Below, piece by piece: positions 2,509-34,650 of a DNA stretch of 35,741 nucleotides. The translations under genes and the position numbers were made by a program. This DNA comes from a virus, in the IMG/VR virus record IMGVR_UViG_3300042540_000731, positions 1 through 35,741 of that record. One strand, 5' to 3'. Below the pieces are notes generated by a model. That model was not told the origin of the DNA. It did no database searches and worked only from the letters and a program-made list of their open reading frames with translations. The number at the start of each line of letters is the position of its first letter. Position 1 is the first letter of the stretch.

Positions 2509-3147
2509 TTAAACTTCTTCCAGAGTTACCGAAATATTCCACATATCAAAATTATTTCCACCACGCTTTACAACTGAATATTGAAAATCTGAAAAATATA
2601 CTTGTATTACCTCATTATATTGATCTAAATGTGTAAACGCCTCATTATCATTTCCAAAATTAGAATAGTTATCATATGCTAAAAACATCCAAAATGGTCC
2701 AGGATGTGAGTTATACCAATTTAGTATTTCTACTCCGCCAGCACCACCGTCTGCAGTATATTCTTGATTATTATTTTGGTAAGGCGAAATACCAGTATTT
2801 GTATTAAATTCAGCATTTTGGAAAAAACCTCTTGATGGTAATAAATCCCAAGATAATCCTATTCTAACTTTATCTGCTATATGATATGATCTCATTCTTC
2901 CATTAATTGTTCTTTGTCTTTGTTCAATTCTTTCTACATTAAAACTAATTTCATTTCTGTTATGATCGGACAAAATAATAAATTGGTCTATTAGATCTGG
3001 ATCAGTACCACCTGGAACATCAGATCCTACTTCATATCCGTCTGGAAGATATACGCCTCCAGTTAGTGTACCAGGGTTATTTGACCATAATATAGCCTGT
3101 GGTCTTTGATACCTTCTTCTTCCTGCTAAATATCCTGCGCTAGCCAT
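2509..3147 (-). CDS. Distal tail-like minor tail protein
   Basis: A 212-aa protein immediately after the tape measure, coupled by TAATG. It starts A-G-R-R-R-Y-Q-R-P, then strand-rich sequence with F-I-I-L-S-D-H-N-R-N-E-I-S-F-N-V-E-R-I-E-Q-R and a final N-F-D-M-W-N-I-S-V-T-L-E-E. Position and beta-rich texture fit the distal tail protein ring that connects the tube to the tip. No catalytic motif is present. Confidence 0.55.
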   Translation of the reverse strand: MASAGYLAGRRRYQRPQAILWSNNPGTLTGGVYLPDGYEVGSDVPGGTDPDLIDQFIILSDHNRNEISFNVERIEQRQRTINGRMRSYHIADKVRIGLSWDLLPSRGFFQNAEFNTNTGISPYQNNNQEYTADGGAGGVEILNWYNSHPGPFWMFLAYDNYSNFGNDNEAFTHLDQYNEVIQVYFSDFQYSVVKRGGNNFDMWNISVTLEEV

Positions 3148-6100
3148 TATGCTCTTTGTCCTCTAATTCTTTGTAAATCAATATATTTAATTTCATCTAA
3201 GACAGCCCTAGCAATAGTATCTGCACTTGCATTAGTACCACCAACATTAATACCAACACTATAATTATACACTGTATTAGAATTATCGCTAACAGAATTC
3301 ATGTTAGTTTGAACTGGCATTGAAAATGCAGTTGGTTTAGAAATAGAATATATGGGCTGTTGAAAAGACTGGGTGACAATATTTTGTGGTATTAAGCTAG
3401 ATTCTAATTTTCTGGCTATTGAAGATGGATATTTAGATTCATTAATAGCTCCTAGCAATGGCCCAAATGATTTTGTTGCTGCTTTATTTATAACAAATTC
3501 TCCTGGCGTTAATAGTGTTGGAACTTTATCAATCATTCCACGTCCAGGAACAATGCCTCCAGATGCCATTTTTTTTATTTTTCCACCGTACATTTTTGCT
3601 TTAAAGCTTCCATATATGCTAGTTCCTGGACTATTACCAGTTGATTGATAAACGGTATTAATAATATGTGTAGTTGTTACTGTTTTATCAAGTCCATTAA
3701 TATTATCTAATGCCGCCTTAGTTTTTGCTTGAATACTTGCAAGAATTCCCTCATATTTGCCAGATTCTATTTGTGCTGCTTTAAGAGCAAGATCTGCTGC
3801 AATCCATTTTTGTTTTTCTAATTCAATAGCATCTTGTCTACCCTTTAATTCATCTTGAACAGCTTTTAGTGCAGCCTGTTTCTTTTCTAATTCTGCCTGA
3901 GCTGGCTCAAGCCTCTTTACTTGAATATTATAAATTTTATCTTCATCAAGTCTAATTGCAAGTACTGCTTTTTCTCTATCTTCTGTAAGATCATAAATCT
4001 CATCTTCTTTAATACGAATTTGATCAAGTATTGGTATTCTGTTTTGCTCAATAATATAAATTTGATCTTGTTTTGCTAAAATTTTTGCTTGAACTAAATC
4101 ACGTTTTTCTTCTAATGAAAATATTTCTTGTCCAATTTGAAATTGACGTTGTTCAATTTGTTCTCTTGTCATACCACTAGCAGAACGAAGTTTTGATATT
4201 TCTTCTTGTCTCGCTGCATCAATAAGACCAGTGGTGCGTTGTGATGCAGCAGAGGCAGCCTGTGCCCTAGATTCTTGTATGGCACGTGCAGCAGAAGAAA
4301 TATCCCCTTGTGTTAATGCATCTGCAATATCAAGTTGATTTTTTTGTTGATTTAATATTTCTTGATTAATTTCTGATACTTGCTCTAATGCTTTAGCTTG
4401 TGCATCATATTTTTTATTAATTGCTTCTGCAGATTTATCAATGAGTGTTAAGTCATTTGCTAAATCAGATGATTCTTCTTGAAGAGCAGCAATAGGTCTA
4501 TCAAATTGCTCTTCAATATTTCTTTGAAGTTTTTCAATTTGCCTATTTAATTCTTCAATAGGTCTATCAATATTTTTTTCAATATTTCTCTGTAGGTCTG
4601 AAATTTCCTCTTGAATATCATCTATTGGTCTATCAAATTTTTCAACAATAACTCTTTGTGCTTTATCAATTGTTTTTTGTATACTGTCAATTTCAGAATT
4701 AATGTCATCAACAGTTTTTTGTGCACTTTCAACCTCTTTTTCAGCATTAACTATTTTTGGTTTATATTCTGCTTCAGCAAGGTCTGATTGAATATTAAAA
4801 TATTCCATAGCACTGTCAAATGCTTCTTTAAACTGATCTTGTGGATTTTCCAGAAGAATTTTAATCTTTTTTAATTCTGGAATTTGATCAATATAGTTTT
4901 TTAATTCTAAGGCATTTAGTTGTCCATCTTTAAGATCTTTAATAAACTCTTTTGCAATTATTGGATTAGATAGTATATCTTGGATATCTTCTGCTTCCAA
5001 CCCAAGACCTTTTAGTAATGGAATTATTTTAGCAAAATTTTGTTGAAATTTTACTTCGGCATCTCTTGTTTCAAAGAAATTTTTTAATTCTGATAAAGAT
5101 AACTCTTTATTAACATCTTTAATAAGTGCAAGCAATTCTTTCCATTTTTTACTTCCTACCTTTGTCGTAGCGATTGCTGCAGCAAGAATGGGATCTGATG
5201 CTATTTCAAATGCCCTTGCAGTATTAATTCCATTTTTCCTTAGCTTATTATATGCATCACTTGCATTTAAAAGATTTTTTCTTTGTTCTGTTAGTTGCTC
5301 TATAGCTTTTTGAAATGCAGATTTTTCTCCATCACCAGATCCAGTACGAGTACCAGTAATTTTTTTAATCCATTCTTCAGACTCTTTAGCAGCAGCCTCT
5401 AGCATTTTTTTATAACGATCTAAGTCAAGTTGGGCCTGAACAAATGATGTTGCATCTCCAGTATATCCAGCATTTACTGCTTTGATAGCACTGGCTAATC
5501 CTGGAAGAATTGCTGTTAATCCCAGAGCTTGTGCTCTCAGCATAAGCATTATGTCTTCTGTTTTTGTAAGATTATCAAATAACTTTTGTGTTTCTGGATT
5601 AAGTTGTTTAATAGCGGACTGCATCATTAAAAGAGCTGCAGATGGATTTGTTTTTTCAACAGCTTTCATAGTAGATTCTAACTGTGTAAAACCTTGATTA
5701 AATTCTTTAGCTCCAATTGCTCCACTCTCTAATCCTCCAGCCAAACCAGTCATCATATTAAATAGTTGCTGTCCGGATGCATTTGCTGCTCTTTGTAATG
5801 AAATTGTTGGCTTTAACTCTGTTGTCCATTGGCTATAAGCCTGACCTGTTTCTGAAACTACACCCTTAAGAATTTGAACTTCTTGATATCCATTTTTTGC
5901 AGCAACTGACAGTTGATTTGTAATGTCAGATGCGAGTTTTGCAAATCCGCTTTGCCCTTCTTTTGTTTTTAAATCTAAAGACTTTAAATCAATAAGAACG
6001 TCAGTTTTTCCTGCTTCTTCACGAAGCGCATCTATAATATCTTTTATTTGTTCTTTAGCAAATCCTTGTCCACCCAATGATAACGCTATACTCTTAAATA

Positions 6101-9100
6101 CAATTTCTGCTTCTTTAGCAGTTGCCTTTCTAAGTTCTTCTATATCGTCTGCAAAATCTTTTTTAAATGATTCGCTTGCCTTAAGCTCATCAACTCTGCC
6201 ACGTCTTTCTGCTGTCATTCTTATTTGTGGAACAGCCTGCAGCATTGGATTTTTTACTGGTTTTATTCCAAAGAAATCTCCGAGTGTTTTTAATTTTTCT
6301 GCAGTAATATTGGATGCATCTGCAAGACCCATTATTGCTTTGCGTTCTTTTTCTCTTTCTTTGTTAACCCATTTAAATGCAGCAATTGAAAGAGTTACTA
6401 CACCAACTAGTGCACCAATCCCTCCTGCAAATCTTGCTAAAAATTTTCCAGCTGTTAATAATTTAGATCCAAATCCAGAAGTGTTTGCAAACAATGTTTT
6501 AAAGCTAGTTGCTCCCATAATATTTGCTACCTTGTTTGCTCTATTAGCAACAACATTAGCAAACATTTCTTGTGTTAATAATTGCACTACTGACATTAAT
6601 CCAAACATTAATCCTGATATTTTAAATACCGCTTCAGATAAGCCCTGAAATCTGCCACCAAATGCAGAAGCAATACCGCTTACACTGGTCATTGCAAAAG
6701 AAACTCCCATTAAAGCACTATTGAATTTAGCAAGGTTTCTAGTAGGTGCAGCAACTCCTCCAGTGCCACCAGCACCGCTAGCTCCAGCTGCTGCTGCTCC
6801 AGCTACTCTTCCGCCAGCACCTCCACCAGTTCCCATACTAATTCCATCAATTGCAGAGTCTCCAAGTTTTTGTCCAGCTAAGGATGCATCATCCATTCCT
6901 TCTAAAATACCTTGCTCAAATCCATTATCAACATTTCTTCCTTCTTGAATTGCACGTTTAGAATTTGAGTTAGACTGTGTCCCTTTTGCAATACCACGAA
7001 TTGCAGCATCTCCTAATTCAAATCCAGCTATGCCAGCCTCTTGTGCTTCATTAAATAACGCTTGTGTAAATGCATTGGCATCATTTTTTAACTCTAATAA
7101 TCTAGCTTTTGCCTCAACACCTAGCTGATCCCAAACATTTTGTATTCCTTGTGTGCTCATTCCAGCAATTTGTGCTATTTCATCACTTATATTAAATGCA
7201 TTGACAATTTTTTGTCTAAACTGTATGAGTTTTTGCTCAACTTGTTCCAATGACCTTAAATCTTTTTCTGGATCGTACGCTCTTTGTCTAGCTGTTTCAT
7301 AAAAGTCTCCAGATAATCTTTCTCCTAAACCAGCCGAAACTGCCCTGCTTTGGTAAGCGAGTCTAATATCTGAAGAATCTACTCCACGCTCAGAGACTGC
7401 TTTTAATACAGATGCACTAGATCTAGTGGTTGGATGAATTCCTTCTGATAAATTAGCAAGTTCTTGTTCAAACTGATCTATTGACATATTGAGTTGTTGT
7501 GCCATTTCCTCAATATCGCTTCTCTTTAAGCTTTGTGTAATCTTATGTATACTATTTAAATAATTATTTATTCCACCTAAATCAGCAATTAAATTATCTG
7601 CATTCCAAAGCTTTACATCTACAACCTCTCCAGCAACCTCTATCTGCTGAACCTGTTTTGTAATATGAGATGCTTGTTTTTGTGTTAGCTGCTTCATAAT
7701 AGATGCAATTTTTTGTGCAGACATTCCTTGATCTTCTAAATACTGTCTAACAGAATTTTCCATCGCAGATATTTCTGCTTCATAAGTAGCCCAAGCCATG
7801 CCAGTTGTTTGTGATTTAATAGCAGATGGAGCTTTATATAGTCCAATATCTTCTTTTAATGTAGAAGCACTTGTAGTAAATGTTCCAGCAGCACTTCCTT
7901 TTCTTCCTAATTTAAATCCAGGAATATTGTCTGCAATTATTCCTGCAATAAGTGGTGCATATTTTTTATTTTGTTTTGCTGGTATTACTGCTTCTCCAGC
8001 TGCTAACATTGCTGGATATTTATCTTCACTTCCGCTTCCTGGAACAGAGATTATTCCATCTGCAAATCCAGGTAGAAATGGCTGCCTCATCATTCCTGGA
8101 TTTGTTTGTGCAAATCTCATTCCAGAGGCTATTGCTTTATCGTAAGAATTTGCTAACTTTTGTACTGCTATGGATTCGGCGGTAAATGTTTGAACAAGTC
8201 TGGCATGTGATTGATCTAATGAACTTGCTACTGCTAACGCATTTTGTTGTTCTAAAGTTAAAAATTGTGTTTGTTCGCCAAGAACTTGTGTTTGCCCAGT
8301 TAATCTTAAATATCCGTTTCTTAAGAGCATTAATCCTTTAATGCCATTTGCCATAAAGTTTGCAAGCAAGCCAAATGTCATAAGTGCTACTGGAGCGATT
8401 GCCCCTAATGCTACAGTTATAACCGTTATTGCTTTTTTCATGCCGCTTGATAAATTATTAAACTTATCTAAAATATTGCCTACAAACTCAAGTATTGGAG
8501 TAACAGATTCTAGAAAAACCTGTCCTACTGGCACTAAAGCTAACTTTAAATCTTCTACAGCCTTTCTAAATTTATTCATACTAGATTCTGCAGTCATTCC
8601 TAATTCTGATTCTGCAGTTGCTGCTAAATCTTCTGCTGAATATCCTGCTAAATCTAAAACACGGGCAGCTTGTGTTCCTCCAGCAGTTACATTTTCAAAT
8701 AAAGTTGATAAACGAGCAAATTGGAATTTACCAAATAATTGTTCAATAGCACGAGCACGAGTAAGCGGATCCAATGTATCTAGTGCTTTTGCAAATTCAA
8801 CTACTGTAGCTCTTAAATTACCCTGATTTCCCTCTACAATTTTTTTAATATTAATTCCCATATTTGCTAACATTGCTGCTGCTTTTTCTGTTGGGTTAAT
8901 CAATGCTGCAAGACCTGACTTCAGCGCATTAGCACCTTCAGAAGCATTGACTCCACCTTGTTTCATAGCAGTCATAAAAAATGCTAAATCTTTTACATTT
9001 CCTCCAAGTTGCATAATAACTGGGGCAACTTTAGGAATTGCTGTTGTTATGTCATCTAAAGATACAACTGTTTGATTTTCAACTGCATTTAAAAAATTAA

Positions 9101-10058
9101 TTGAATCAGACAGATCTTCGTTAGAAAGTTTAAATGCATTTTGTAAAGATATAGTTGTTTCAAGTGCTTTTTGTTGATCAATTTGACCAAGAACCTGCAA
9201 TCTTGTTGCTTCAGTTACTTGTCTTTGTAGATCTATTCCTTGAAAACCTGCTGCGGCAGCATCGGCTGCTAAACTAACTGTAGCAGATACTGCTATACCA
9301 TATTTAGTAAAAGATTCTCCAAGTTCTTGAATAGCGGATAAAGCCTGTTCTCTTTCTTCTGTTGGAGTAAATAAATCTCCATAAACTTTTCTAAATTTAA
9401 GTGCAGCAGCTTCCATATCCATGAATGTTCTTGAAGCTGTAGTTCCAAGAGCCATTAATGGCAAAGTGAAACCAACCATAAGTTGGCGACCAGCCCATTG
9501 TGTATTTTTACCAAAATTAAGAAGATTCGTAGATCCTTGTTTTATAAGTTGATTAAAAATTGCTTGACGTTGTGCAGAAATTTGAAGCTGAGTTGATATA
9601 TTTGACATATCCAACTCATTAGGCATAATTGCAATTGCTCGCATTGCACCAGATGCGTCTCTTCCCATTTTAATGTACTGTGTTTGTAGTCTTTTAACAT
9701 TTTCTTCAGATACTTTATTAATAGTGTCAAACTCTGACTTAAAAAGTTTTCCAAATGTTTTTGTAGCACCGCCAGCAAAACGAAAATACTCTCGCATTGA
9801 AAATTTGTTTTTTTCTAAAGAATCTGTGAATGATTCTGCAGTAGTTTTTATTGTTCGTAATTCTGCAGAGAAAGCACCAATAGAGTTAACACTATTAATA
9901 AAGTTTCTCTGCAGATCACGTTGTGCAAGTGCAGCAGCTTCGCTGCTTTTTGATATAGAGGTATGAAATTGAGAAATTTGACGCTGAAGCGCCTTAAGCT
10001 GTGATAATGCATTTGACGTATCTATATTTACGCCAATATTAGCATTAACGTCAGCCAC
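3147..10058 (-). CDS. Tail tape measure protein, 2303 aa
   Basis: Starts at GTG with GAGGTG 6 nt upstream. The N-terminal ~530 residues include a TP901-type tape measure core (~190-470, with A-T-R-L-Q-V-L-G-Q and M-K-Q-G-G-V-N-A-S-E-G). Hydrophobic segments occur near 540-580, 1111-1170 and 1200-1228, probably for membrane passage of DNA. A Gly/Ala linker lies at ~1075-1110. Two copies of a P-x-M/L-L-x-x-G-E-x-V-I module are at ~661-714 and ~2163-2206. The C-terminal third is coiled coil with exact 22- and 21-residue repeats. The length sets tail length. TAATG-coupled to the next gene. Confidence 0.95.
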   Translation of the reverse strand: MADVNANIGVNIDTSNALSQLKALQRQISQFHTSISKSSEAAALAQRDLQRNFINSVNSIGAFSAELRTIKTTAESFTDSLEKNKFSMREYFRFAGGATKTFGKLFKSEFDTINKVSEENVKRLQTQYIKMGRDASGAMRAIAIMPNELDMSNISTQLQISAQRQAIFNQLIKQGSTNLLNFGKNTQWAGRQLMVGFTLPLMALGTTASRTFMDMEAAALKFRKVYGDLFTPTEEREQALSAIQELGESFTKYGIAVSATVSLAADAAAAGFQGIDLQRQVTEATRLQVLGQIDQQKALETTISLQNAFKLSNEDLSDSINFLNAVENQTVVSLDDITTAIPKVAPVIMQLGGNVKDLAFFMTAMKQGGVNASEGANALKSGLAALINPTEKAAAMLANMGINIKKIVEGNQGNLRATVVEFAKALDTLDPLTRARAIEQLFGKFQFARLSTLFENVTAGGTQAARVLDLAGYSAEDLAATAESELGMTAESSMNKFRKAVEDLKLALVPVGQVFLESVTPILEFVGNILDKFNNLSSGMKKAITVITVALGAIAPVALMTFGLLANFMANGIKGLMLLRNGYLRLTGQTQVLGEQTQFLTLEQQNALAVASSLDQSHARLVQTFTAESIAVQKLANSYDKAIASGMRFAQTNPGMMRQPFLPGFADGIISVPGSGSEDKYPAMLAAGEAVIPAKQNKKYAPLIAGIIADNIPGFKLGRKGSAAGTFTTSASTLKEDIGLYKAPSAIKSQTTGMAWATYEAEISAMENSVRQYLEDQGMSAQKIASIMKQLTQKQASHITKQVQQIEVAGEVVDVKLWNADNLIADLGGINNYLNSIHKITQSLKRSDIEEMAQQLNMSIDQFEQELANLSEGIHPTTRSSASVLKAVSERGVDSSDIRLAYQSRAVSAGLGERLSGDFYETARQRAYDPEKDLRSLEQVEQKLIQFRQKIVNAFNISDEIAQIAGMSTQGIQNVWDQLGVEAKARLLELKNDANAFTQALFNEAQEAGIAGFELGDAAIRGIAKGTQSNSNSKRAIQEGRNVDNGFEQGILEGMDDASLAGQKLGDSAIDGISMGTGGGAGGRVAGAAAAGASGAGGTGGVAAPTRNLAKFNSALMGVSFAMTSVSGIASAFGGRFQGLSEAVFKISGLMFGLMSVVQLLTQEMFANVVANRANKVANIMGATSFKTLFANTSGFGSKLLTAGKFLARFAGGIGALVGVVTLSIAAFKWVNKEREKERKAIMGLADASNITAEKLKTLGDFFGIKPVKNPMLQAVPQIRMTAERRGRVDELKASESFKKDFADDIEELRKATAKEAEIVFKSIALSLGGQGFAKEQIKDIIDALREEAGKTDVLIDLKSLDLKTKEGQSGFAKLASDITNQLSVAAKNGYQEVQILKGVVSETGQAYSQWTTELKPTISLQRAANASGQQLFNMMTGLAGGLESGAIGAKEFNQGFTQLESTMKAVEKTNPSAALLMMQSAIKQLNPETQKLFDNLTKTEDIMLMLRAQALGLTAILPGLASAIKAVNAGYTGDATSFVQAQLDLDRYKKMLEAAAKESEEWIKKITGTRTGSGDGEKSAFQKAIEQLTEQRKNLLNASDAYNKLRKNGINTARAFEIASDPILAAAIATTKVGSKKWKELLALIKDVNKELSLSELKNFFETRDAEVKFQQNFAKIIPLLKGLGLEAEDIQDILSNPIIAKEFIKDLKDGQLNALELKNYIDQIPELKKIKILLENPQDQFKEAFDSAMEYFNIQSDLAEAEYKPKIVNAEKEVESAQKTVDDINSEIDSIQKTIDKAQRVIVEKFDRPIDDIQEEISDLQRNIEKNIDRPIEELNRQIEKLQRNIEEQFDRPIAALQEESSDLANDLTLIDKSAEAINKKYDAQAKALEQVSEINQEILNQQKNQLDIADALTQGDISSAARAIQESRAQAASAASQRTTGLIDAARQEEISKLRSASGMTREQIEQRQFQIGQEIFSLEEKRDLVQAKILAKQDQIYIIEQNRIPILDQIRIKEDEIYDLTEDREKAVLAIRLDEDKIYNIQVKRLEPAQAELEKKQAALKAVQDELKGRQDAIELEKQKWIAADLALKAAQIESGKYEGILASIQAKTKAALDNINGLDKTVTTTHIINTVYQSTGNSPGTSIYGSFKAKMYGGKIKKMASGGIVPGRGMIDKVPTLLTPGEFVINKAATKSFGPLLGAINESKYPSSIARKLESSLIPQNIVTQSFQQPIYSISKPTAFSMPVQTNMNSVSDNSNTVYNYSVGINVGGTNASADTIARAVLDEIKYIDLQRIRGQRA
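3893..4082 (-). repeat. 21-residue coiled-coil repeats in tape measure
   Basis: Units with an x-x-D-x-I-Y core (Q-D-Q-I-Y, E-D-E-I-Y, E-D-K-I-Y) start near residues 1993, 2014 and 2035 (63-bp period), i.e. three heptads each. Confidence 0.75.
4440..4703 (-). repeat. 22-residue coiled-coil repeats in tape measure
   Basis: Units beginning F/I-D-R-P-I start at residues 1808, 1830 and 1852 (66-bp period), each with L/I-Q-R-N-I-E near its end where the pattern is complete. A degenerate unit precedes them. A 22-residue period equals two hendecads. Confidence 0.8.
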
Positions 10059-23483: not shown

Positions 23484-25514
23484 TTAGGATATTTTTATCA
23501 TACAGGTATCTGTAGTACAGTATGCTTCGCCTTCAGCCTCTAGATTATCTACCCCGTCATAAATAGCAGACCAGTTAATCTTCTTAATCTGTCCAATATA
23601 TTCGTTATATTCCTCTTTTGTAATTTGGGTATATGGCTGTTGTGGATATGTCTTATTGCCCATTGGCAAGAATGATACCGCCTTCAACTGCCCCTCATAC
23701 ATATGAAGTGCTGGAGCAATATGCTCTGTTTCTTTTTCCTTGTCAAATGAAAGGGTAACAGAAACACCGTTATCAGACCAATACTTCTGAGTTGTAGCAG
23801 CAAGACCAATCTTCTCAAATAATGTTACATCCTTCTCTGATCTTGCATGTCCAGAATGAACTGGGAAATATACAACAGTTGTATTAGCAGACACTAAATC
23901 TGGTTCCATCTTATACCCTGCTGCTTTGAACAAACTGATCATTGGATCCTGATTTCCAAATCGGATTGCACGAAGGAAGAAGTTTCCTCCTGGACCCCAG
24001 TGAACACCTGGAGTTGCGCCAGATAGAAGAGATACTGAACCTGATGGCTTTACTGTTGTTACACGAATTGATTCACGAACACATAGCCACTCAGAATATG
24101 AATGATCATATTTACGAATTGTCTTGTATCCTTCATCCATCCACTCACGAACTGCTGGCAAACCTTTTTGATCTGCAAAGGATGCAATACCAGTAAGGGA
24201 TGTTCCGATACGGCGATTACGCTGCATAATGCCGTTAGTAATCTGCCAGTGCGTAGGAACAAGAGTAACTGTTTTTCCATACAAGTAAGCAAACTTAAGA
24301 GTACGCAAGAAATCTTCTTTGGAGTCATGACGATTTAAATGTACTTCTACAAGTGTGCAAAGTTCATAAGATTCTAGTGGCTGTTCTGCACACGGATTGA
24401 ACCCCATAACACGATAATCTTTTCCATCTGCAGGATCTGCAAGACGACCAAAGTTACGAGCAACATCAAGCCAAATAAATCCTGGCTCTCCGTTATCTGC
24501 AATTAAATTAACATAGTCTTCATATTTTGTTCCAACATTTGCAGCAATAGAATTATTGCTCATCCATGCCCATCCAGGATTTTCTGGATCAAATGAATTT
24601 CTATCAGGAAATATTTCTGCATTTTTTAAATTAATAAAATCTTTATCTTCTGGTGCTCCAAGTGCAAGGGTAGCAGAACGACGAACATTTCCTGCTACAA
24701 CACATGTACCAATAAGATTTACAATATCTACAATTGCACGAGAATCAAGAGTCTGTCCTGCTCTATCTCCAATTACAATACGCAAAGTATCATGTAGTTT
24801 GATTAATGGTGCTGGGCCAGAGGCGGTACCACCAAAACCCTTAATAGGTGCACCCAATGGTCTAATCTGAGAATAATCAAAATTAATCTTAGCCTGACCT
24901 TGTTTCAAATATGAATTAAGTAGTAATCTTACAGATTCTACCCACCCTTCTCTTGTATCAGGAATTAGATATGTTATTTCTTCTTTGGTGTTGGCATATA
25001 TTTCCATACCCTTTTCTTGTCCAAGAGTATCAAATCCTACTCCTACTCCAAGCATCAGAGCATCCATAACCCAGCCAAAAAGGGCACCAGGGTCGTTTCT
25101 ATCAATATCCCTAGTAGAAACCATAGCACAGTTCTGCAAAGCTGCTGAATTGCGTCTCTCCATCGTCATAGGGGTACCAAAAGCCCATAGCCCACGTCCT
25201 GGTGGAGTCCATTTAAGATTAAACATACGATCATAGGCTTCCTGAGCAGATTTCTGAGCCTTATTATCATTCCATGGAAGGCGATTTTCTTTAGCGTGAT
25301 TTTTTTGTACAGAATACATACCTTCAATTACACGCTTACAAACCTCATACCAGCGTTCTTTTGTTCCATCATTTTTGACCCGTGAATAAGTACGGATAAA
25401 TGTAATTTCTCCTAACGAGTTGCCGCCTGCGTCGGTAAAGCCAAAAGGAGACTCAAGATCCCTATATTTATTTACGAATTCATCCAATAAACGAAAAGAA
25501 AATATATCTGACAT
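23484..25514 (-). CDS. nrdJ: Class II (adenosylcobalamin-dependent) monomeric ribonucleotide reductase
   Basis: A 676-aa enzyme reducing ribonucleotides to deoxyribonucleotides, here supplying precursors for phage DNA. The active-site motif N373-P-C375-A-E377 contains the thiyl-radical cysteine and the catalytic Asn and Glu. C129 and C386 are the redox pair. The spacing C375 to C386 (11) equals that of the Lactobacillus leichmannii enzyme (C408 and C419). The C-terminal C666-x4-C671 corresponds to its C731/C736 regenerating pair. The segment V-K-P-S-G-S-V-S-L-L (488-497) is also conserved. The family member is ~739 aa, so this one is slightly short. It needs no NrdB or NrdD partner and works with or without oxygen if the host supplies B12. 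It is flanked by virion genes, an unusual site, and has its own promoter and palindrome. Confidence 0.92.
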   Translation of the reverse strand: MSDIFSFRLLDEFVNKYRDLESPFGFTDAGGNSLGEITFIRTYSRVKNDGTKERWYEVCKRVIEGMYSVQKNHAKENRLPWNDNKAQKSAQEAYDRMFNLKWTPPGRGLWAFGTPMTMERRNSAALQNCAMVSTRDIDRNDPGALFGWVMDALMLGVGVGFDTLGQEKGMEIYANTKEEITYLIPDTREGWVESVRLLLNSYLKQGQAKINFDYSQIRPLGAPIKGFGGTASGPAPLIKLHDTLRIVIGDRAGQTLDSRAIVDIVNLIGTCVVAGNVRRSATLALGAPEDKDFINLKNAEIFPDRNSFDPENPGWAWMSNNSIAANVGTKYEDYVNLIADNGEPGFIWLDVARNFGRLADPADGKDYRVMGFNPCAEQPLESYELCTLVEVHLNRHDSKEDFLRTLKFAYLYGKTVTLVPTHWQITNGIMQRNRRIGTSLTGIASFADQKGLPAVREWMDEGYKTIRKYDHSYSEWLCVRESIRVTTVKPSGSVSLLSGATPGVHWGPGGNFFLRAIRFGNQDPMISLFKAAGYKMEPDLVSANTTVVYFPVHSGHARSEKDVTLFEKIGLAATTQKYWSDNGVSVTLSFDKEKETEHIAPALHMYEGQLKAVSFLPMGNKTYPQQPYTQITKEEYNEYIGQIKKINWSAIYDGVDNLEAEGEAYCTTDTCMIKIS

Positions 25515-25672: not shown

Positions 25673-27154
25673 TTAAGTACTCAAGTCTCCAATTAAAACC
25701 CAACTATCAGTTGATCTTTTAATTAATGTGGCAGCAGACCATTGCGCTCTTAATGATAGTGTTGGTGTTCCATTTATAGTTGTTGTACCTGGACTTGAGG
25801 CAGCAACAGTTACCTGACCAACACCAGTTTGTAATATATTTATTTGAGATCCTACTGGAAAAGCTACAAGACTATTTGTTGGCACATATAATGTTATTGC
25901 TGCAGCGTTACTTAATTCAACCATTTTATCTTTATCTGATAAAACCAACGTATATGTTGTTGTAGATTGCGAACTTGTTAAAATTGTTGATGGTGCGAAT
26001 TCTACTGCAGCAGATCCATCTCCAACAATAATTTTATCATTTGTAGAATCAAAAGATATTCTTCCAGATGTAGTTGATGACGTAGATGAAAGCGTCAATG
26101 TTGGGGTATCAATAGTGGGTGATGTTCCAAATACCAAAGATCCACTACCTGTCTCATCTGTTATTGCACTTCTTAAATTTGAAGAAGATGGAGTTCCAAG
26201 AAATGTTGCAATTCCAGTACCAAGAGAAGTAATTCCAGTTCCACCATTTGTTGCTGCTAATGTTCCAGTAATTCCAGTTGTCAAAGAAACATTTGTGATT
26301 GTATTAGTTGTACCATCCAATATCTTGTTTTCTAATGTTGAAAAAGATTTTTCAGATACTAAATTATCTATTCTTATAGGTGTATTTGCTGGTAAAGGAA
26401 AATCTCTGTCAGACAATGTGTCTGAGGAATTAATATATGAGTTATATGTTTTTGTACCTACTAAAGATCTTCTTATCTGGCCCGTAACACCACCCGCTAT
26501 CCAAAGGTCGTTACCATAGGCTACTGATCTAATTACTGTAGTTCCAAAGTTGGAGGTTTGGGTAGTCCATGTAATACCGTCTGTTGATGTGCGGAGTTGG
26601 CCTGCATCAGCGCCTGCTATCCAAAGGCTGTTGCCATATGCTACTGACCATATAAAAGTATTTCCAAAGTTGGAGGTTTGGGTAGTCCATGTAATACCGT
26701 CTGTTGAGGTGCGGAGTTGGCCTGTAGCACCGCCTGCTATCCAAAGGCTGTTGCCGTAGGCTATTGAGTTAATAATTGTGGTTCCAAAGTTGGAGGTTTG
26801 GGTGGTCCATGTAGTACCGTCTGTTGAGGTGCGGAGTTGGCCTCCATCACCTACTGCAATCCAAAGGTTGTTGCCGTAGGCTATTGAGTTAATTGCTGAA
26901 GTTCCAAAGTTGGAGGTTTGAGTGGTCCATGTAATACCGTCTGTTGAGGTGCGGAGTTGGCCTCCATCAGCACCTACGATCCAAAGGCTGTTGCCGTAGG
27001 CTACTGAGTTAATTGTTGTATTTCCAAAGTTGGAGTTTTCTGCAATCCATGTATCTGCCGTAGTTGAAACTATTGTATTTGAAAAATTTATGCTTTTATC
27101 TAAAGCAATAGATAGTCCCTGTTTGACTACAAAATCTTTATCTACAGTTGCCAC
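25673..27154 (-). CDS. Fibre with recombinogenic Asp-box propeller array, 493 aa
   Basis: Translation starts at a GTG. It is chosen because the resulting M-A-T-V-D-K-D-F start matches the adjacent fibre; the only G-rich ribosome site is ~13 nt away and weak. Residues ~35-228 are five Y-G-N-x-L-W-I blade units with four exact Asp-boxes (S-T-D-G-x-T-W-T), encoded by near-identical 120-bp repeats. After residue ~240 comes a fibre shaft (N-G-G-T-G-I-T-S-L-G-T-G) and a beta-rich C-terminal domain (~390-493) of the kind found at fibre tips. Five blades are fewer than most closed propellers, so either the fold is completed by other sequence or by oligomerisation, or blade number varies. Host binding is the likely role. 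It ends ~160 bp before the ribonucleotide reductase. Confidence 0.65.
   Translation of the reverse strand: MATVDKDFVVKQGLSIALDKSINFSNTIVSTTADTWIAENSNFGNTTINSVAYGNSLWIVGADGGQLRTSTDGITWTTQTSNFGTSAINSIAYGNNLWIAVGDGGQLRTSTDGTTWTTQTSNFGTTIINSIAYGNSLWIAGGATGQLRTSTDGITWTTQTSNFGNTFIWSVAYGNSLWIAGADAGQLRTSTDGITWTTQTSNFGTTVIRSVAYGNDLWIAGGVTGQIRRSLVGTKTYNSYINSSDTLSDRDFPLPANTPIRIDNLVSEKSFSTLENKILDGTTNTITNVSLTTGITGTLAATNGGTGITSLGTGIATFLGTPSSSNLRSAITDETGSGSLVFGTSPTIDTPTLTLSSTSSTTSGRISFDSTNDKIIVGDGSAAVEFAPSTILTSSQSTTTYTLVLSDKDKMVELSNAAAITLYVPTNSLVAFPVGSQINILQTGVGQVTVAASSPGTTTINGTPTLSLRAQWSAATLIKRSTDSWVLIGDLST
26524..27050 (-). repeat. Tandem 120-bp propeller-blade repeats
   Basis: The element TCCAAAG recurs at 26543, 26663, 26783, 26903 and 27023, an exact 120-bp (40-codon) period. 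About 60 bp per unit is almost invariant, while two short windows per unit vary strongly: just before TCCAAAG, and around the G-L-W-I strand end. This is a conserved frame with variable loops. Confidence 0.9.
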
Positions 27155-27183: not shown

Positions 27184-29256
27184 TTACGCCTCTATTAGCG
27201 TTTTGTGTACCTTTACTGTTGTTCCATTTGTTGAAGTTACTAACAATCTTACATCTCCAGATAGATAGTCTGCATCAACAGTGCCAATTTGAGCATTACT
27301 AATTATATCTGCATATTCTGTTATATATACATTATTATTTCCATCAACTGTTATTAATACTTCTATTGCTTCTATATCGTTACCGTTTTTCATTTGAACA
27401 ATATATTTTGCAGTGTCATATGTGGTTGCAGACCAAGTATCAACAACAGTTACGCTTGTTCCCGAAATGCTTGTTGTAGCAGTACCGATAAGGGCATCTG
27501 TTAGAGTTACGGAACCAGCGGTTAATGATCCTGAACCTACAGACAGTCCTGCGAATGTTGGACTAGATGATGCAGCAATACTCTGTGGTAAAGATAATGT
27601 TACTGAGCCTGTTGAAGCAGATGCTGTTATTTGATCTGCAGTGCCAGCTATACTTGTTACGCCAGAGTTACCTATTGTAAGAATATTGCTTGTAGAAGCA
27701 TATGATACGCTAATTCCAGTACTACTAGTAACTGCATTTCCAAATCCGTCTATAGCAGTTTCAATATCTGATGTAAATGCTACTGTTCCTGTAGCATCCT
27801 TAAATGTAATTGTATTATCTTGTGTTGGATCTGTAAATGTAAGAGTAGTCTCATGTGTATCATTTGTTCCTTCAATTACAATATTATTATCTGATAGATA
27901 TAATCCAGATACTGTTGGGTTTGTAATTGTTGGACTTGTAAGGGTTTTATTTGTTAATGTTTGAGCAGTACTTAAGTCTGCTGTAATACCAGTATTAATG
28001 CTAAATGTATTACCTGTTAGGGTTAATCCATTACCCGCCAAATATGTGCCAGCACCTGAGAACTGCTCAAATACGATTGGATCAGTTCCAAGAGTTGTAA
28101 TGTTATTTACTTGTACCCAGCCAGTATTATCATATGCTGTACCGCCAGATACAAAGAAGAAGTCACCAGCATCAATTTCTGCTGCTGTATTGTAATCAGA
28201 TGCACGAACCGCTGCTCCTGAAGTTGAAGCAACGTAGATACCATTTTGTGAAGTTGTAGACTGGTTTTTGACAAGAACCCGGTCTCCTGCAGCAAGTGTT
28301 ACACCATCAATAATATCTCCAGCCTCAAGATCTGTGCTTAGATCAATATTTGATGTTGTTGCTGCTTTTACTGAAGCATGTACATGAAGTCCTTCTGCAA
28401 CTGCATCAACATATTGTTTGGTTGCTGCATCAAGAGGATTTACTGGATCTGCATTAAGAGTTACAGACCCTGGGAATGTTACTGCGCTTGGGAATGATAA
28501 GGTTACTGCTCCAACTGAAGTATTTGCAGCAATTTGATTTGAAGTTCCTGCAATACTTGAAACTCCACCAGATGCATTGAATGAAAGGGTTCCTGCTTCA
28601 TCATTATAAGTAATTGTAATATTTGTTTGTGTACCAGCCGCAATTGCTGCTGCTACTGCGTCTACAGAAGCCTCTGTAAAATCTGAAACATTTCCAGATG
28701 TTACTGAAATTGTGTTGCTTGTAGAACTAATTGTTTTATTTGTAAGAGTTTGTGTTCCAGAAGTTGTAGCTACTGTTGAATCAATTGCTATAGTTACTGC
28801 TGAAGATCCATTATATGAAGTTCCAGAAAGCCCAGTTCCTATTGTTAATGCATTTGGAGCAGATGCAGTTATTGTTGTAGATCCTCCAAGTGAAACAGAG
28901 CTTCCATTTATTGTTACTGAAGAATTTGTTAATTTATCATTTGCAATTGATCCTGCAAGCATTGTATTTGTGACAGTTCCAGTATCTCCGCTGGTTATTA
29001 CTGTTCCAGTGACATTAGGGAAAGTAATGGTTCTGTCATCTGTGGGATCTACGACTGTTAAAGTTGTTTCATAAGAATCTGCTGTTGAGCCCTCAAATAT
29101 AATGCCACTTCCATCAATAATTGGGGATGTTAAAGTTTTATTTGTAACTGTACTAGTGCTTGCTTCTGTAAGAACATTTGATCCATTTACAGTAGCAGAT
29201 GAGCCTTCTACTACAAGGCCATTTTTAATTCTGAAGGCTTTATCTACTGTTGCCAT
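27184..29256 (-). CDS. Tail fibre-like structural protein, 690 aa
   Basis: The N-terminus M-A-T-V-D-K-A-F-x-x-K-N-G-L is shared with the next fibre and probably forms the anchor. The shaft is low-complexity beta-structure with recurring T-N-K-T-L-T-S-P-x-I and D-x-T-I-T-F-x-x-x-T-G-T-V units typical of phage fibres. Around residue 275-430 is an A-A-T-K-Q-Y-V-D-A-V helix followed by a domain with D-R-V-L-V-K-N-Q and G-I-Y-V, also usual in fibres. The last ~95 residues are the domain shared with the 145-aa protein. An AGGAG lies 6 nt before the ATG. It is probably a trimeric adhesin. No enzymatic signature is seen. Confidence 0.65.
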   Translation of the reverse strand: MATVDKAFRIKNGLVVEGSSATVNGSNVLTEASTSTVTNKTLTSPIIDGSGIIFEGSTADSYETTLTVVDPTDDRTITFPNVTGTVITSGDTGTVTNTMLAGSIANDKLTNSSVTINGSSVSLGGSTTITASAPNALTIGTGLSGTSYNGSSAVTIAIDSTVATTSGTQTLTNKTISSTSNTISVTSGNVSDFTEASVDAVAAAIAAGTQTNITITYNDEAGTLSFNASGGVSSIAGTSNQIAANTSVGAVTLSFPSAVTFPGSVTLNADPVNPLDAATKQYVDAVAEGLHVHASVKAATTSNIDLSTDLEAGDIIDGVTLAAGDRVLVKNQSTTSQNGIYVASTSGAAVRASDYNTAAEIDAGDFFFVSGGTAYDNTGWVQVNNITTLGTDPIVFEQFSGAGTYLAGNGLTLTGNTFSINTGITADLSTAQTLTNKTLTSPTITNPTVSGLYLSDNNIVIEGTNDTHETTLTFTDPTQDNTITFKDATGTVAFTSDIETAIDGFGNAVTSSTGISVSYASTSNILTIGNSGVTSIAGTADQITASASTGSVTLSLPQSIAASSSPTFAGLSVGSGSLTAGSVTLTDALIGTATTSISGTSVTVVDTWSATTYDTAKYIVQMKNGNDIEAIEVLITVDGNNNVYITEYADIISNAQIGTVDADYLSGDVRLLVTSTNGTTVKVHKTLIEA

Positions 29257-30942: not shown

Positions 30943-31599
30943 ATGAATAATGTTTGGATAGTAGTTCCAATCATTTCCAATGACTTAGATTTATCTGATT
31001 TTGTAGAAAAATTTACTGGTAGCTATATTGCCCCAGAATTCTATGAATCTGAAGTATTTAATCGGGAGACCAGAGAGATAGAAAAAAATAATATAAGCCA
31101 TCCTCATTTTAGAGAATCTGGCCCTGATTTTTCTAATAAAATTATTTTTGTTAATACAAAGCCTGGTTACACGGAGTATGAAAATGTTGTTCATTTAGAA
31201 GATTTTAATGATATTAGCATATACCGTTATTGGAATTTAGGAATTGACTATGCCGTAGCTAACGGTGCAGAATATGTTGTTTTATTAAATGGAGTAATTA
31301 ATTTTGACCCATTTATTATTAATGACTCATATGATGAAATTATTAAACAAGAAAAAGAATTAGTAAATATATTTGACGGCGCTGTAATGATTTTATCTGC
31401 ATCATCATCCTTACGGCCAGATAATCAATTTCAAATTTGGTTTGGAGATAATGACCTATATCGCAGATCGGAATCTGTTTTAGGATATAGTAGATCTGAC
31501 TATTTTAAACTAGACTATTTAATTGATCATAATCATGATGAATCTTTTAATGCAATTGTTAAGTCTGATGAGATTAAATATAATGCTAAATGGAACTAA
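30943..31599 (+). CDS. GT2-like protein, the only plus-strand gene
   Basis: A 218-aa protein beginning V-W-I-V-V-P-I. Residues ~95-115 read N-L-G-I-D-Y-A...G-A-E-Y-V-V-L-L-N-G-V, closely matching the GT2 core, except that the usual aspartate of the metal site after L-L-N is replaced by G-V. A later W-F-G-D-N-D-L-Y-R-R motif (~166-175) matches the GT-A acceptor and base region. It may be a glycosyltransferase with an altered metal site or a non-catalytic relative. A GGAGGG ribosome site lies 6 nt before the ATG. It has its own extended -10 promoter and runs toward the GT4 gene, overlapping it by 14 bp. It is the only real gene seen on this strand. Confidence 0.6.
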   Translation: MNNVWIVVPIISNDLDLSDFVEKFTGSYIAPEFYESEVFNRETREIEKNNISHPHFRESGPDFSNKIIFVNTKPGYTEYENVVHLEDFNDISIYRYWNLGIDYAVANGAEYVVLLNGVINFDPFIINDSYDEIIKQEKELVNIFDGAVMILSASSSLRPDNQFQIWFGDNDLYRRSESVLGYSRSDYFKLDYLIDHNHDESFNAIVKSDEIKYNAKWN

Positions 31600-32554
31600 T
31601 TTTTTCAAATAGCTCATTCCATTCTCTTGCTCTTGCTTGCCAAGAATAATTTTCATTATAAAAATCAGACTGTTTTTGTAATTTACTTTGTGTTGCAATA
31701 GACCAGTAGTTATCTATTTCTTCGTTAAGAATCTTGGCATATGCTGGAATAAAAGTTTCTGGTACTGCTTGCATTGGCATTAATCTTGCATATTCTGACC
31801 CAGTTTCATATAAAGCTCCTAAATTAGTAGTAACCATACGGCACCCAGCAGCTCCTGCTTCAACCATAGCTAAACAACATGTTTCTTCAAATGTACTTGG
31901 ATAAGCAAAAATATGTGCTTCCTGCAAAGCTTTTTTAATTACATCATTTGTAGCATAACCCATATAGTTAACATTTTTCATATTACGAGCTATTTCAAAG
32001 TGTTCTTCATATACCCCGTTTGTATGTGCTTCATATCCAGAGCCATACATTTTTGCTGATGAGTATATATCAAGCTCAACATCATCTCTATTTAGCATCT
32101 CAAACGCTGGCAAAAGCATGTCTAAGCCACGAAAAGGAGCAGAGGTATATATAAGCTTGATCTTTCCATCTTTTGGCTTTGGTTTAAACTCTATTGGCTC
32201 AATAGCGTTTTTAATAACATACGCATTTTCAAGCGGTATTCTAAATAGCCATCTATATTTTTCATGCTGCCAATTAGATACATAAACAAATGAATTAATA
32301 GCATTCATAAATGATGGATCCAAATACCCTGGTTTTAACGATGTATCACTATGAGCCAGATGCTGCCATAATATATTCTTTTTTGTATATTTAATATTTT
32401 TAAAATATGGGTTAGACAATATAATATTTATATCTTTATGCTGTTCTATATTTGTGTATTTATATAGTCCATTTTTTAATATTTCCGTGCCGCCCATTGG
32501 AGGCATAATATCATCCACATTTAAAGAGTTTTGTGTCTTTTGTAGCCAATCCAT
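31586..32554 (-). CDS. GT4-like glycosyltransferase (GT-B fold)
   Basis: A 322-aa protein. The C-terminal half has the retaining GT-B signature E-x7-E (E224 to E232, in F-E-E-T-C-C-L-A-M-V-E-A-G), preceded by F-A-Y-P-S, with the donor-domain opening strand K-L-I-Y-T-S-A-P-F-R-G-L (~133-144). The N-terminal half has G-G-T-E near residue 21 and a Y-V-S-N-W-Q segment (~91), usual in this family. It would transfer a sugar from a nucleotide donor to an unknown acceptor. It follows the upstream gene after 8 nt, with AGGAG at proper spacing. Its 3' end overlaps the 3' end of the plus-strand gene by 14 bp, so the two units converge. It is rather short for a GT4 enzyme, as phage versions often are. 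Confidence 0.75.
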   Translation of the reverse strand: MDWLQKTQNSLNVDDIMPPMGGTEILKNGLYKYTNIEQHKDINIILSNPYFKNIKYTKKNILWQHLAHSDTSLKPGYLDPSFMNAINSFVYVSNWQHEKYRWLFRIPLENAYVIKNAIEPIEFKPKPKDGKIKLIYTSAPFRGLDMLLPAFEMLNRDDVELDIYSSAKMYGSGYEAHTNGVYEEHFEIARNMKNVNYMGYATNDVIKKALQEAHIFAYPSTFEETCCLAMVEAGAAGCRMVTTNLGALYETGSEYARLMPMQAVPETFIPAYAKILNEEIDNYWSIATQSKLQKQSDFYNENYSWQARAREWNELFEKISSI

Positions 32555-32562
32555 ATTTGCTC

Positions 32563-33285
32563 CTAATTATATGTTTTTTTCTGCCAAAACTGTTGTTTAT
32601 ATGAGCGAACAATTTTTGATTTTAGTAAAAATCCATTTTTACGATTAGCATCTTCATCAAACTCTATTATTTTACTTTTCCAATCTTCTCTTTTTAAAGG
32701 AATAACTTGGCAAATTGGAGTACCCTTTTCAAGAATAAAAATATCTTTATCAATTACAGAATCAAGCAATTGAAATGGAAATTCTACTCCAAGATTATAT
32801 ATATCAGTATCAACTACTCCAGAAAAGGTTCTAAATGGTAAATCATGTCTATTTAATGGATGAGTGAATAAAGCACTATATCCTTTTGGAGTAATTATCC
32901 TCCATCCTGGTCTCCATTTAAGAAGACTTGACGATCCTCCAAATGGGGCTGGAAGACCTGGTGCTTGTTCTGGTCCATGCTGTCCTATAAAATTGATATT
33001 AGTAGCCCAACGAATATTTATCATTCCTTTGTCATTTTTTCTAAATTCCATATCAAACGGTAATTCAAAAATATACCCAGAACTTAGTCCATCAAGAAAT
33101 GGAGAACATCCTTTTAGAGTAAGATTACTAACAGCAACTCCATCTTTTGATAAGCCATCAATTTTTTCATCATCCATTCTTGTTGGCATATTTTTATACC
33201 ATTCAGGAATTGCTTGAATTGCTGGCTTTGGACTATCAAAAAGTAACTCTGTCTCTTTATCAAATGGCTCAAATTCAATATTCAT
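32563..33285 (-). CDS. Conserved-looking protein of unknown function in glycan operon
   Basis: A 240-aa soluble protein with no signal peptide or membrane segment. Visible landmarks are an N-terminal P-K-P-A-I-Q-A-I-P-E-W-Y-K segment (~20-32), G-C-S-P-F-L-D (~69), P-G-W-R-I-I-T-P-K-G-Y-S (~128), a T-H-P-L-N-R segment, and a C-terminal half with G-T-P-I-C-Q-V-I-P-L. The pattern recalls a DUF6065-like family of phage and bacterial proteins, but that is from memory and unverified. It lies between glycosyltransferase genes and is coupled to the upstream one by TAATG, so a role in making or modifying a sugar or its acceptor is reasonable. No catalytic motif can be named. Confidence 0.45.
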   Translation of the reverse strand: MNIEFEPFDKETELLFDSPKPAIQAIPEWYKNMPTRMDDEKIDGLSKDGVAVSNLTLKGCSPFLDGLSSGYIFELPFDMEFRKNDKGMINIRWATNINFIGQHGPEQAPGLPAPFGGSSSLLKWRPGWRIITPKGYSALFTHPLNRHDLPFRTFSGVVDTDIYNLGVEFPFQLLDSVIDKDIFILEKGTPICQVIPLKREDWKSKIIEFDEDANRKNGFLLKSKIVRSYKQQFWQKKTYN

Positions 33286-33989
33286 TACTTATCCATTTGT
33301 GGGTACATTTTTTGCAGTACATCTATCCAATGTAGTTTAAAAGTTTTTTGATGGGTTACTCTAATTTTTGGATCCACCCAAATATCAAACCCACAATTAA
33401 TTGCTTTTGTACACCAAGAAAGATCTTCTCCTATTAATATAAATTCTGGACTTGTATCTTTATTCTCATCTGTATTGGGAATAGCAACTGGTCCAAACCA
33501 TGGTCTTGGCATTTTTTCAAATACTCCATTTTTAACTGCTAAAAAACCAAATCCAACTCCAGCAACTTTAAATGGTTCTTTTTTTTCAAGAAGCATTTGT
33601 TCTGGCATCATCCCACCTCTTGGTTGGTTATAAATTGGAACATGACGGTCTTCCATTAAATAACAACCTGAAATAATATCTTTATCTGAATTGTATAATC
33701 CAAAAAAATCTGATGGCTCCCACTCTATATCTGAGTCAATCCAAACAATTTTGTCATATGTCCATTCACCACTACATGGTTCTGTCATCTTAATATTATT
33801 TGTATCCCAACCACCAATTGTAGACTCTCTTGCCATTGCGACTAAAGATCCACCCTGATTTAAAAAATTCCATGTAAGACCTTCTTGATTTAGAATATAA
33901 GTTGTTTTTAAAATACTTCTCATATATCCAGGAGTAAAACTATTTCCTGGTGTAGCTATTACTACATTAAAATGTGGTTTATTATTCAT
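33285..33989 (-). CDS. Phage GT-A-like glycosyltransferase, second of a tandem pair
   Basis: A 234-aa paralogue of the preceding gene. It keeps the I-A-T-P-G start, W-I-D-S-D-I (D85-S-D87), an A-G-V-G-F-G-F-L segment, M-P-R-P-W-F, and the I-G-E-D-L-S-W-C motif followed by R-V-T-H. The DxD-type acids and the GED motif are intact, so both copies look catalytically competent. The two proteins differ mostly between these motifs, which suggests divergent acceptors or sugars after duplication. Its start overlaps the previous gene by 8 nt, and its stop overlaps the next gene by 1 nt (TAATG), placing it in one translationally coupled operon. Confidence 0.7.
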   Translation of the reverse strand: MNNKPHFNVVIATPGNSFTPGYMRSILKTTYILNQEGLTWNFLNQGGSLVAMARESTIGGWDTNNIKMTEPCSGEWTYDKIVWIDSDIEWEPSDFFGLYNSDKDIISGCYLMEDRHVPIYNQPRGGMMPEQMLLEKKEPFKVAGVGFGFLAVKNGVFEKMPRPWFGPVAIPNTDENKDTSPEFILIGEDLSWCTKAINCGFDIWVDPKIRVTHQKTFKLHWIDVLQKMYPQMDK

Positions 33990-34650
33990 ATTTTTCTAGT
34001 TTTACCCTAACTTTTTTATAATGTGAAACTCTAATTGTAGGATCTAAGTATATCTTAAATCCAGACTGTCTTGCTTTTTTACACCAAGAAAAATCTTCTC
34101 CATAAGGAATAAATATTTCTTTTTGATTGTCCTCTGATGTCATTTTTTCAAATAAAGATTCAAACCACGGTCGTTGCATTTTTTCAAAAATACCCTGTTT
34201 CATTGCAATAAATCCAAAACCAGCTGCAAATATTTCTTCTTCATCATTACTTTTAAGTATTCTATCAATTTCTTTTGCTGCATCTTCTGAACTAACAGAA
34301 AACATTGGTGTCATTTTTTCATTAAAATAAAGTCCAGATACTATATTTTTTTCTGATTTATATAATTTTATAAAATCTTCAATTTCCCATCCAATATCTG
34401 AGTCAATCCAAATAATTTTATCATATGTCACTACACCACGTGCTGGTGTATTATTAAATGGATCTAAATATGTATCACCCATAGCCGTTGCTTCTCTTGC
34501 AGAACTAACCATTGACGAGTACTGATTTAAAAACATATAAGTAATATTGTTATCATGTAAATATGAAATAGTATTAATCAAGCTTTTTACATATTCTGCT
34601 TCCATATTTCTACCTGGAGTAGCTATTAATATATTAATATGTTTTTTCAT
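33982..34650 (-). CDS. Phage GT-A-like glycosyltransferase, first of a tandem pair
   Basis: A 222-aa protein with an N-terminal I-A-T-P-G strand and loop, a W-I-D-S-D-I motif (D83-S-D85) that fits the DxD metal and nucleotide-sugar site of GT-A enzymes, an A-G-F-G-F segment (~143-147), and a late G-E-D-F-S-W-C motif (~184-190) followed by R-V-S-H. It probably moves a sugar from a nucleotide donor to an unknown acceptor. The next gene is a clear paralogue. The start ATG has an AAGGGGG ribosome site 4 nt upstream. The reading frame ends 8 nt inside the next gene (ATGAATAA overlap), so the two are probably co-translated. Donor and acceptor cannot be read from the sequence. Targets could be virion proteins, phage DNA or the host surface. 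Confidence 0.7.
   Translation of the reverse strand: MKKHINILIATPGRNMEAEYVKSLINTISYLHDNNITYMFLNQYSSMVSSAREATAMGDTYLDPFNNTPARGVVTYDKIIWIDSDIGWEIEDFIKLYKSEKNIVSGLYFNEKMTPMFSVSSEDAAKEIDRILKSNDEEEIFAAGFGFIAMKQGIFEKMQRPWFESLFEKMTSEDNQKEIFIPYGEDFSWCKKARQSGFKIYLDPTIRVSHYKKVRVKLEKYE

Follow-up and report, generated by a model that had tools for sequence, protein, structure and literature searches.

A tandem array of predicted propeller blades with two hypervariable clusters in a fibre-like gene of an uncultured phage

A fibre-like gene with five tandem blades

The window, meaning the whole stretch of DNA analysed here, comprises 35,741 bases and corresponds to an IMG/VR virus record, a metagenomic contig from an uncultured phage that is probably of freshwater origin. 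It contains portal, protease and head genes together with fibre-like genes. One of the latter, designated FIB (25673..27154, minus strand), is an open reading frame of 493 codons with a GTG start and a product of 493 amino acids. From the N-terminus, this product comprises an anchor-like segment, a strand d, five blades of 40 residues each, a linker and a C-terminal domain. The anchor-like segment (27068..27154, minus strand), which begins MATVDKDFVVKQGL, was recognized through a direct repeat (D9, 73% identity) and is similar in kind to that of the neighbouring fibre gene at 27184-29256; the FIB orthologue of L165 has a similar start (L-numbers are labels of the compared contigs and loci). 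The adjoining predicted strand d, STTADTWIAEN (27035..27067, minus strand), was assigned from its position and a W motif as in relatives. Comparison of the units delimited blades 1 (26915..27034), 2 (26795..26914), 3 (26675..26794), 4 (26555..26674) and 5 (26450..26554), all on the minus strand; blade 5 is diverged and does not contribute its own strand d.

The linker and C-terminal domain (25673..26449, minus strand) have bladeless counterparts in L165 (62%) and L041 (56%), and residues 391-491 match the 'minor tail protein' family phrog_8780 (PHROG, E 1e-17). The PHROG matches of FIB fall in this C-terminal part, and no PHROG family was found for the blades. Pfam likewise provided no family for the blades, as every match fell below its cut-off, including those to DUF6242 (PF19755; 22.6 bits vs a gathering cut-off of 29) and Kelch; WD40, NACHT and HET gave no Pfam match in FIB up to E 1. 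On balance, FIB probably encodes a tail protein or fibre-like protein of the phage, with the blade cassette placed after the N-terminal anchor and before the C-terminal domain. Among neighbouring features, the gene at 23484-25514, between FIB and a gene of 1201 amino acids, is 80-99% conserved in relatives and was presumptively called ribonucleotide-reductase-like from a reading of its sequence. A 66-bp tandem repeat occurs at 4473-4650 within a gene of 2303 amino acids (3147-10058).

An initial annotation of this DNA had described five 120-bp units at 26524-27050, nearly identical over ~60 bp each, matching even at third codon positions and differing at two clustered spots. Tandem Repeats Finder reported a single array at 26488-27053 with a period of 120, 4.7 copies, 86% matches and zero indels, and on the minus strand the five units span 26450-27034; the array is thus found in the described range but extends to ~26450. 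Near-identity describes units 1-4, which share 82-90% of their DNA, but not unit 5, whose identity to the other units is 71-74% and which becomes divergent beyond its strand c. Exact direct repeats in the array are at most 46 bp long. At scaffold positions with a common amino acid in units 1-4, the codon is identical in 84% of comparisons vs 48-49% expected by codon usage, so the agreement at third positions is real. The GC3 of the array is 0.42 (0.44 for blades 1-4), whereas the remaining parts of FIB have 0.18 and 0.12. The two clustered variable spots were confirmed; in the unit of 40 residues they occupy columns 5-9 and 20-24, with lesser differences at columns 11, 16 and 34. In blade 1, hypervariable cluster 1 (columns 5-9) lies at 27008..27022 and hypervariable cluster 2 (columns 23-26) at 26957..26968, both on the minus strand, and each recurs in blades 2-5 at positions 120, 240, 360 and 480 bp lower. 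The count of five blades rests on one contig.

Predicted fold and variability across the blade family

AlphaFold2 models were obtained for the five-blade segment of FIB (pTM 0.81) and for a seven-blade relative, L009 (pTM 0.89), and both place strand a at columns 8-14, b at 17-22, c at 27-30 and d at 37-39. The seven-blade model matches solved seven-bladed propellers with Z reaching 33 (272 residues, 2.2 A), including 2ymu (Z 32.6), and WRAP designs also align. These matches and the four-stranded blades of the models bear out the earlier designation of the unit as a propeller-type repeat. The FIB model aligns with five of the seven blades of WDR5 (Z 20.9, rmsd 2.9, 201 residues) and with the five-bladed WRAP fragment 6r60 (Z 19.8, rmsd 3.0, 181 residues). 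In seven-bladed relatives the N-terminal strand d serves as the 'velcro' closure, and in the L009 model it closes a ring of seven four-stranded blades. This strand is formed in the seven-blade model and not in the five-blade model, which is therefore an open arc with an unclosed ring. FIB itself has five blades, not seven, and this number is anomalous in a family of seven-blade propellers.

The variable spots correspond to the loop between strands d and a (columns 40 to 7) with the start of strand a, and to the loop between strands b and c (columns 23-26). Because the strands alternate in direction, these two loops lie on the same face. When the variable sites were mapped as the initial annotation had proposed, strand order in two AlphaFold2 models thus put both hypervariable clusters on one predicted face of the propeller.

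One scan of viral contigs recovered 31 loci with the same blade. Over 331 distinct blades, variability reaches 3.7 bits at column 7, 3.5 at column 23, 3.35 at column 9 and 3.0 at column 24, with further variable columns at 5 (2.4 bits), 26 (2.1) and 6 (2.0); the remaining columns are mostly well below the hypervariable ones. The bottom-face turns YGNN and TSTDGxTW are nearly invariant despite being loops. An independent column set (5, 6, 7, 9, 23, 24, 26) was derived from 282 blades, leaving out the window virus, L021 and the near relative L020, and was applied to the seven most alike blades of the window virus, namely FIB blades 1-4 and blades 3-5 of a second propeller gene, P2. Fourteen of the 21 amino-acid changes among these blades fall in the hypervariable columns (permutation p=3e-5), so that the claim of variation aimed at the loop spots holds with columns defined from other contigs. 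Column by column, variability among these blades follows that of the family (Spearman 0.64, p=7e-6), and synonymous changes tend the other way (3 vs 12, Fisher p=0.008). The two hypervariable spots are weakly linked, with 283 combinations vs 325 expected under independence, and the mean within-array rank correlation between them is 0.20, which fits recombination and convergence alike. Aquatic phages thus encode a large family of such seven-bladed propellers, whose blades each combine a near-fixed 40-residue scaffold with approximately seven hypervariable positions.

Blade number, exchange between arrays and selection

Parsed arrays in the relatives contain 7, 14, 21 or ~42 blades, and in these the strand d of the last blade is supplied from the N-terminus. 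Every parsed single propeller has seven blades; counts detected by HMM miss degenerate blades. Since the arrays of the relatives are multiples of seven, the suggestion that blade number changes unit by unit was not borne out in them. Approximately 42 blades, or six propellers, occur in single genes of 1736-2058 residues (L020:1474-7647; L022 and L025:3691-8898). Similar blades with 27-45% identity are present in contigs of many bacterial genomes (L278-L328), several of them from lakes, which contributed 26 usable units.

The closest relative of the window virus is L165, with identities of 84% for the fibre neighbour, 97% for the ribonucleotide-reductase-like gene and 91% for the 1201-amino-acid gene. 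Its FIB orthologue has 197 residues and zero blades, compared with five in FIB, and blades were found in the FIB slot of neither L165 nor the other syntenic loci; the counterpart of the linker and C-terminal domain in L041 is also without blades. Because the fibre gene of the closest relative is bladeless, the blade cassette is considered lineage-specific. Exact searches for either junction found the same insertion in no second contig, in a record set from which near-identical entries may have been withheld. In several of L186-L194, a bladeless FIB-like gene is the immediate neighbour of the large propeller gene, as against a distance of ~8 kb in the window.

P2 (34697..35740, minus strand) is cut by the end of the window and continues in L021, a contig from a different sample that overlaps it at 100% over 431 bp and holds its upstream part, giving ~14 blades by reading. 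L175, which shares its sample of origin with L165, has an orthologue of P2 that contains ~42 blades and is accompanied downstream by the same genes, and the difference between ~14 and ~42 blades therefore implies that whole propellers are gained or lost. The blades of FIB are nearest to those of P2/L021, with DNA identity up to 95% (blade 3 to blade P3 in L021). Identity of scaffold codons is 0.872 between FIB and P2 blades 3-5, 0.843 within FIB and 0.862 within P2, against an expected value of ~0.48, and GC3 is 0.44 in FIB blades 1-4 and 0.43 in P2 blades 3-5 but 0.20 in the later P2 blades. As the two groups agree in codons well beyond expectation and have in common a GC3 not seen in the other parts of either gene, FIB and P2 were connected by recent transfer, and the blades of these paralogous genes, ~8 kb apart, form one homogenised DNA pool. 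The large propeller gene is adjoined by phrog_2170, phrog_1574 and phrog_7084 (31586-34650), which are glycosyltransferase-like and related genes; sugar-modifying genes beside the propeller gene are also found in L175, L177, L186 and others, a conserved linkage.

Exchange at a larger scale is seen in L022 and L025, near-identical phage contigs that are otherwise 99% identical. In their ~42-blade gene, 141 of 840 nucleotides (17%) differ in one propeller (residues 757-1036), whereas the remainder of this gene differs at 67 of 4368 positions and the sequence beyond it at 26 of 4836; we read this as an allelic replacement of a whole propeller with the blade number kept. Between L013 and L022, the arrays are 76% identical and the flanks 94%. 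Within units, the left half of blade 2 resembles the paralogous blade P4 and its middle resembles P5, and by eye the blade looks like the left half of P4 joined to the right half of P5. None of 164 triplet tests for within-unit mosaics was significant after correction (best p=0.0036), and blade-level mosaics in FIB are suggestive only. A larger mosaic run that included very diverged blades returned many low p-values and was set aside as confounded by rate differences along the unit. The proposed recombination of repeats is thus supported by the pool shared between FIB and P2 and by the exchange between L022 and L025, but not for shuffling within units. In distant arrays, the mean within-array synonymous divergence is 0.49; because synonymous sites are far more diverged there, scaffold identity in these arrays mostly reflects purifying selection and not homogenisation, and continuing homogenisation is not general.

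Scaffold dN/dS was ~0.2 in every set tested. At the hypervariable columns, dN/dS was 0.61 (95% 0.2-1.1) for the unreplaced blades of L022/L025, 1.32 (0.9-2.0) for the replaced propeller and 0.95 for L017/L025, so that the values between orthologues, 0.6-1.3, are not clearly above 1 and give no clear support to the diversifying selection proposed in the initial annotation. The pool of FIB and P2 blades gave 2.3 (1.9-2.8), with pairs that are non-independent. The diversification without a reverse transcriptase proposed in the initial annotation agrees with the lack of any RVT_1 match in 11 records, all of them fragments of genomes and including ones of 160 and 172 kb.

Competing explanations and known systems

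The explanation toward which we lean is that of a propeller associated with the tail, with a ligand-binding top face that is diversified by recombination of arrays and by substitutions at approximately seven positions per blade. The hypervariable face would bind ligands on the host surface, arrays recombining homologously, both inside one genome and from phage to phage, would change specificity with the fold kept, and substitutions that are tolerated or favoured at these positions would add diversity. In effect, the pattern would amount to recombination-driven diversification of a binding surface that requires no reverse transcriptase, which we consider somewhat probable as part of the same account. 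A plainer explanation, which we regard as possible though doubtful, is recent amplification with relaxed loops, in which a few newly duplicated blades still have codons in common, purifying selection for folding preserves the scaffold, the top-face loops vary freely, and neither selection for diversity nor special recombination is involved. It is consistent with the orthologue dN/dS near 1 at hypervariable columns beside a scaffold value of ~0.2, with the high synonymous divergence of distant arrays, and with the continuous amplification of new propellers from single blades described in one report (PMC9218822). Relaxation of loops does not readily account for YGNN and TSTDGxTW, which are turns of the bottom face and yet nearly invariant, and the clear exchange of a whole propeller between L022 and L025, the single homogenised pool common to two genes and the window-pool dN/dS of 1.9-2.8 at hypervariable columns, though drawn from non-independent pairs, also argue against it.

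The number of blades in FIB could instead be an assembly artefact in which a seven-bladed propeller collapsed to five in the metagenome contig. The seven blades of all parsed single propellers, the unclosed AlphaFold2 model and the failure to find either junction in a second contig are all as expected from such a collapse, but an array whose longest exact repeat is just 46 bp offers little occasion for it, relatives whose exact repeats reach 107 bp were assembled as multiples of seven, and the architecture is regular, with an N-terminal strand d and a last blade without d; we consider a collapse unlikely. We give a similarly low probability to a structural or enzymatic module, for example one that cleaves or decorates glycans, whose variability is unrelated to host recognition. 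Such repeats occur in baseplate genes of some phage relatives, and the matches to DUF6242 and Kelch, being below curated cut-offs, document no binding function; variability limited to a few positions of one face would be unusual for an enzyme, however, and no conserved catalytic residues are apparent, the same scaffold being present in each blade. In tail proteins of phages, variation aimed at loops usually marks the action of a diversity-generating retroelement (DGR), yet mutation of the blades by such an element is very improbable given that RVT_1 is missing from all 11 records and that codon differences at hypervariable positions are of all base types and not adenine-specific.

In logic, this system has its nearest analogue in the HNWD genes of Podospora anserina (het-d, het-e, het-r), which carry WD40 repeats of high internal conservation; blades are 80-100% identical within a gene, units are exchanged within and between loci, and the interaction face of the propeller has a few hypervariable positions, four of them under positive selection (PMC12222747, PMC2873952). 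FIB resembles these genes in unit identity above 80% (82-90% among units 1-4, with unit 5 at 71-74%), in having few hypervariable positions on one predicted face, as judged from AlphaFold2 models and strand order, and in exchange between loci, as FIB and P2 share one pool. In contrast, blades in the phage relatives come in sevens whereas HNWD repeat number varies unit by unit, the fungal proteins are immune receptors with WD40 blades and HET-NACHT domains, and selection at four codons is established there, compared with a phage dN/dS of ~1 between orthologues and ~2 in the non-independent window pool. Because FIB lacks WD40, NACHT and HET, shows no unit-by-unit change in copy number, and selection is established only in the fungal genes, FIB is not classified as a member of HNWD. 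Its place is, as a variant, among the seven-bladed BNR/YCF48-like propellers of phages.

Phage propellers of the latter kind, such as the baseplate wedge initiators of Synechococcus phages, have the same blade type in a phage gene, and a 'photosynthesis system II assembly factor' of the Actinomycetia phage DSL-LC01 matches at 46%, and a match to Ycf48 was obtained by sequence profile; blades in these proteins are far more diverged and form no homogenised array. Recently amplified beta-propellers (WRAP 2YMU; PMC9218822, PMC6805158) share with FIB near-identical blades that result from recent amplification. These two reports stress amplification, and phages go unmentioned in the passages found, whereas the phage case is characterized by variable columns and exchange of whole propellers. 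As in FIB, the WRAP fragment 6R60 has five blades of the seven-blade type, and five-blade WRAP fragments form dimers (PMC6805158); those fragments are engineered, in contrast to the natural five-blade segment of FIB. DGR targets in phage tails (Tentaclins, PMC10743442) are similar in that variation is aimed at a binding surface of a tail protein, putative in our case, but differ in that here the repeat units carry the variation and the 11 records contain no reverse transcriptase. A phage propeller with hypervariable blades was not found in the literature searched, which took in few subscription journals.

If the favoured explanation is correct, phages without a reverse transcriptase would have a simple way to adjust a binding surface without putting the fold at risk, and the hypervariable columns name the positions to examine for binding. 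Phage adhesins would then be linked to the logic of immune receptors with high internal conservation, and metagenome contigs may hold many allelic propellers. We propose, more tentatively, that tandem seven-bladed propellers, with a fixed scaffold and two hypervariable spots on the top face, may constitute a combinatorial recognition repertoire of aquatic phages, generated through recombination of whole propellers and blades within and between genomes; such a repertoire would parallel the HET-E/D system of fungi on the viral side and offer a route to diversity other than DGRs.
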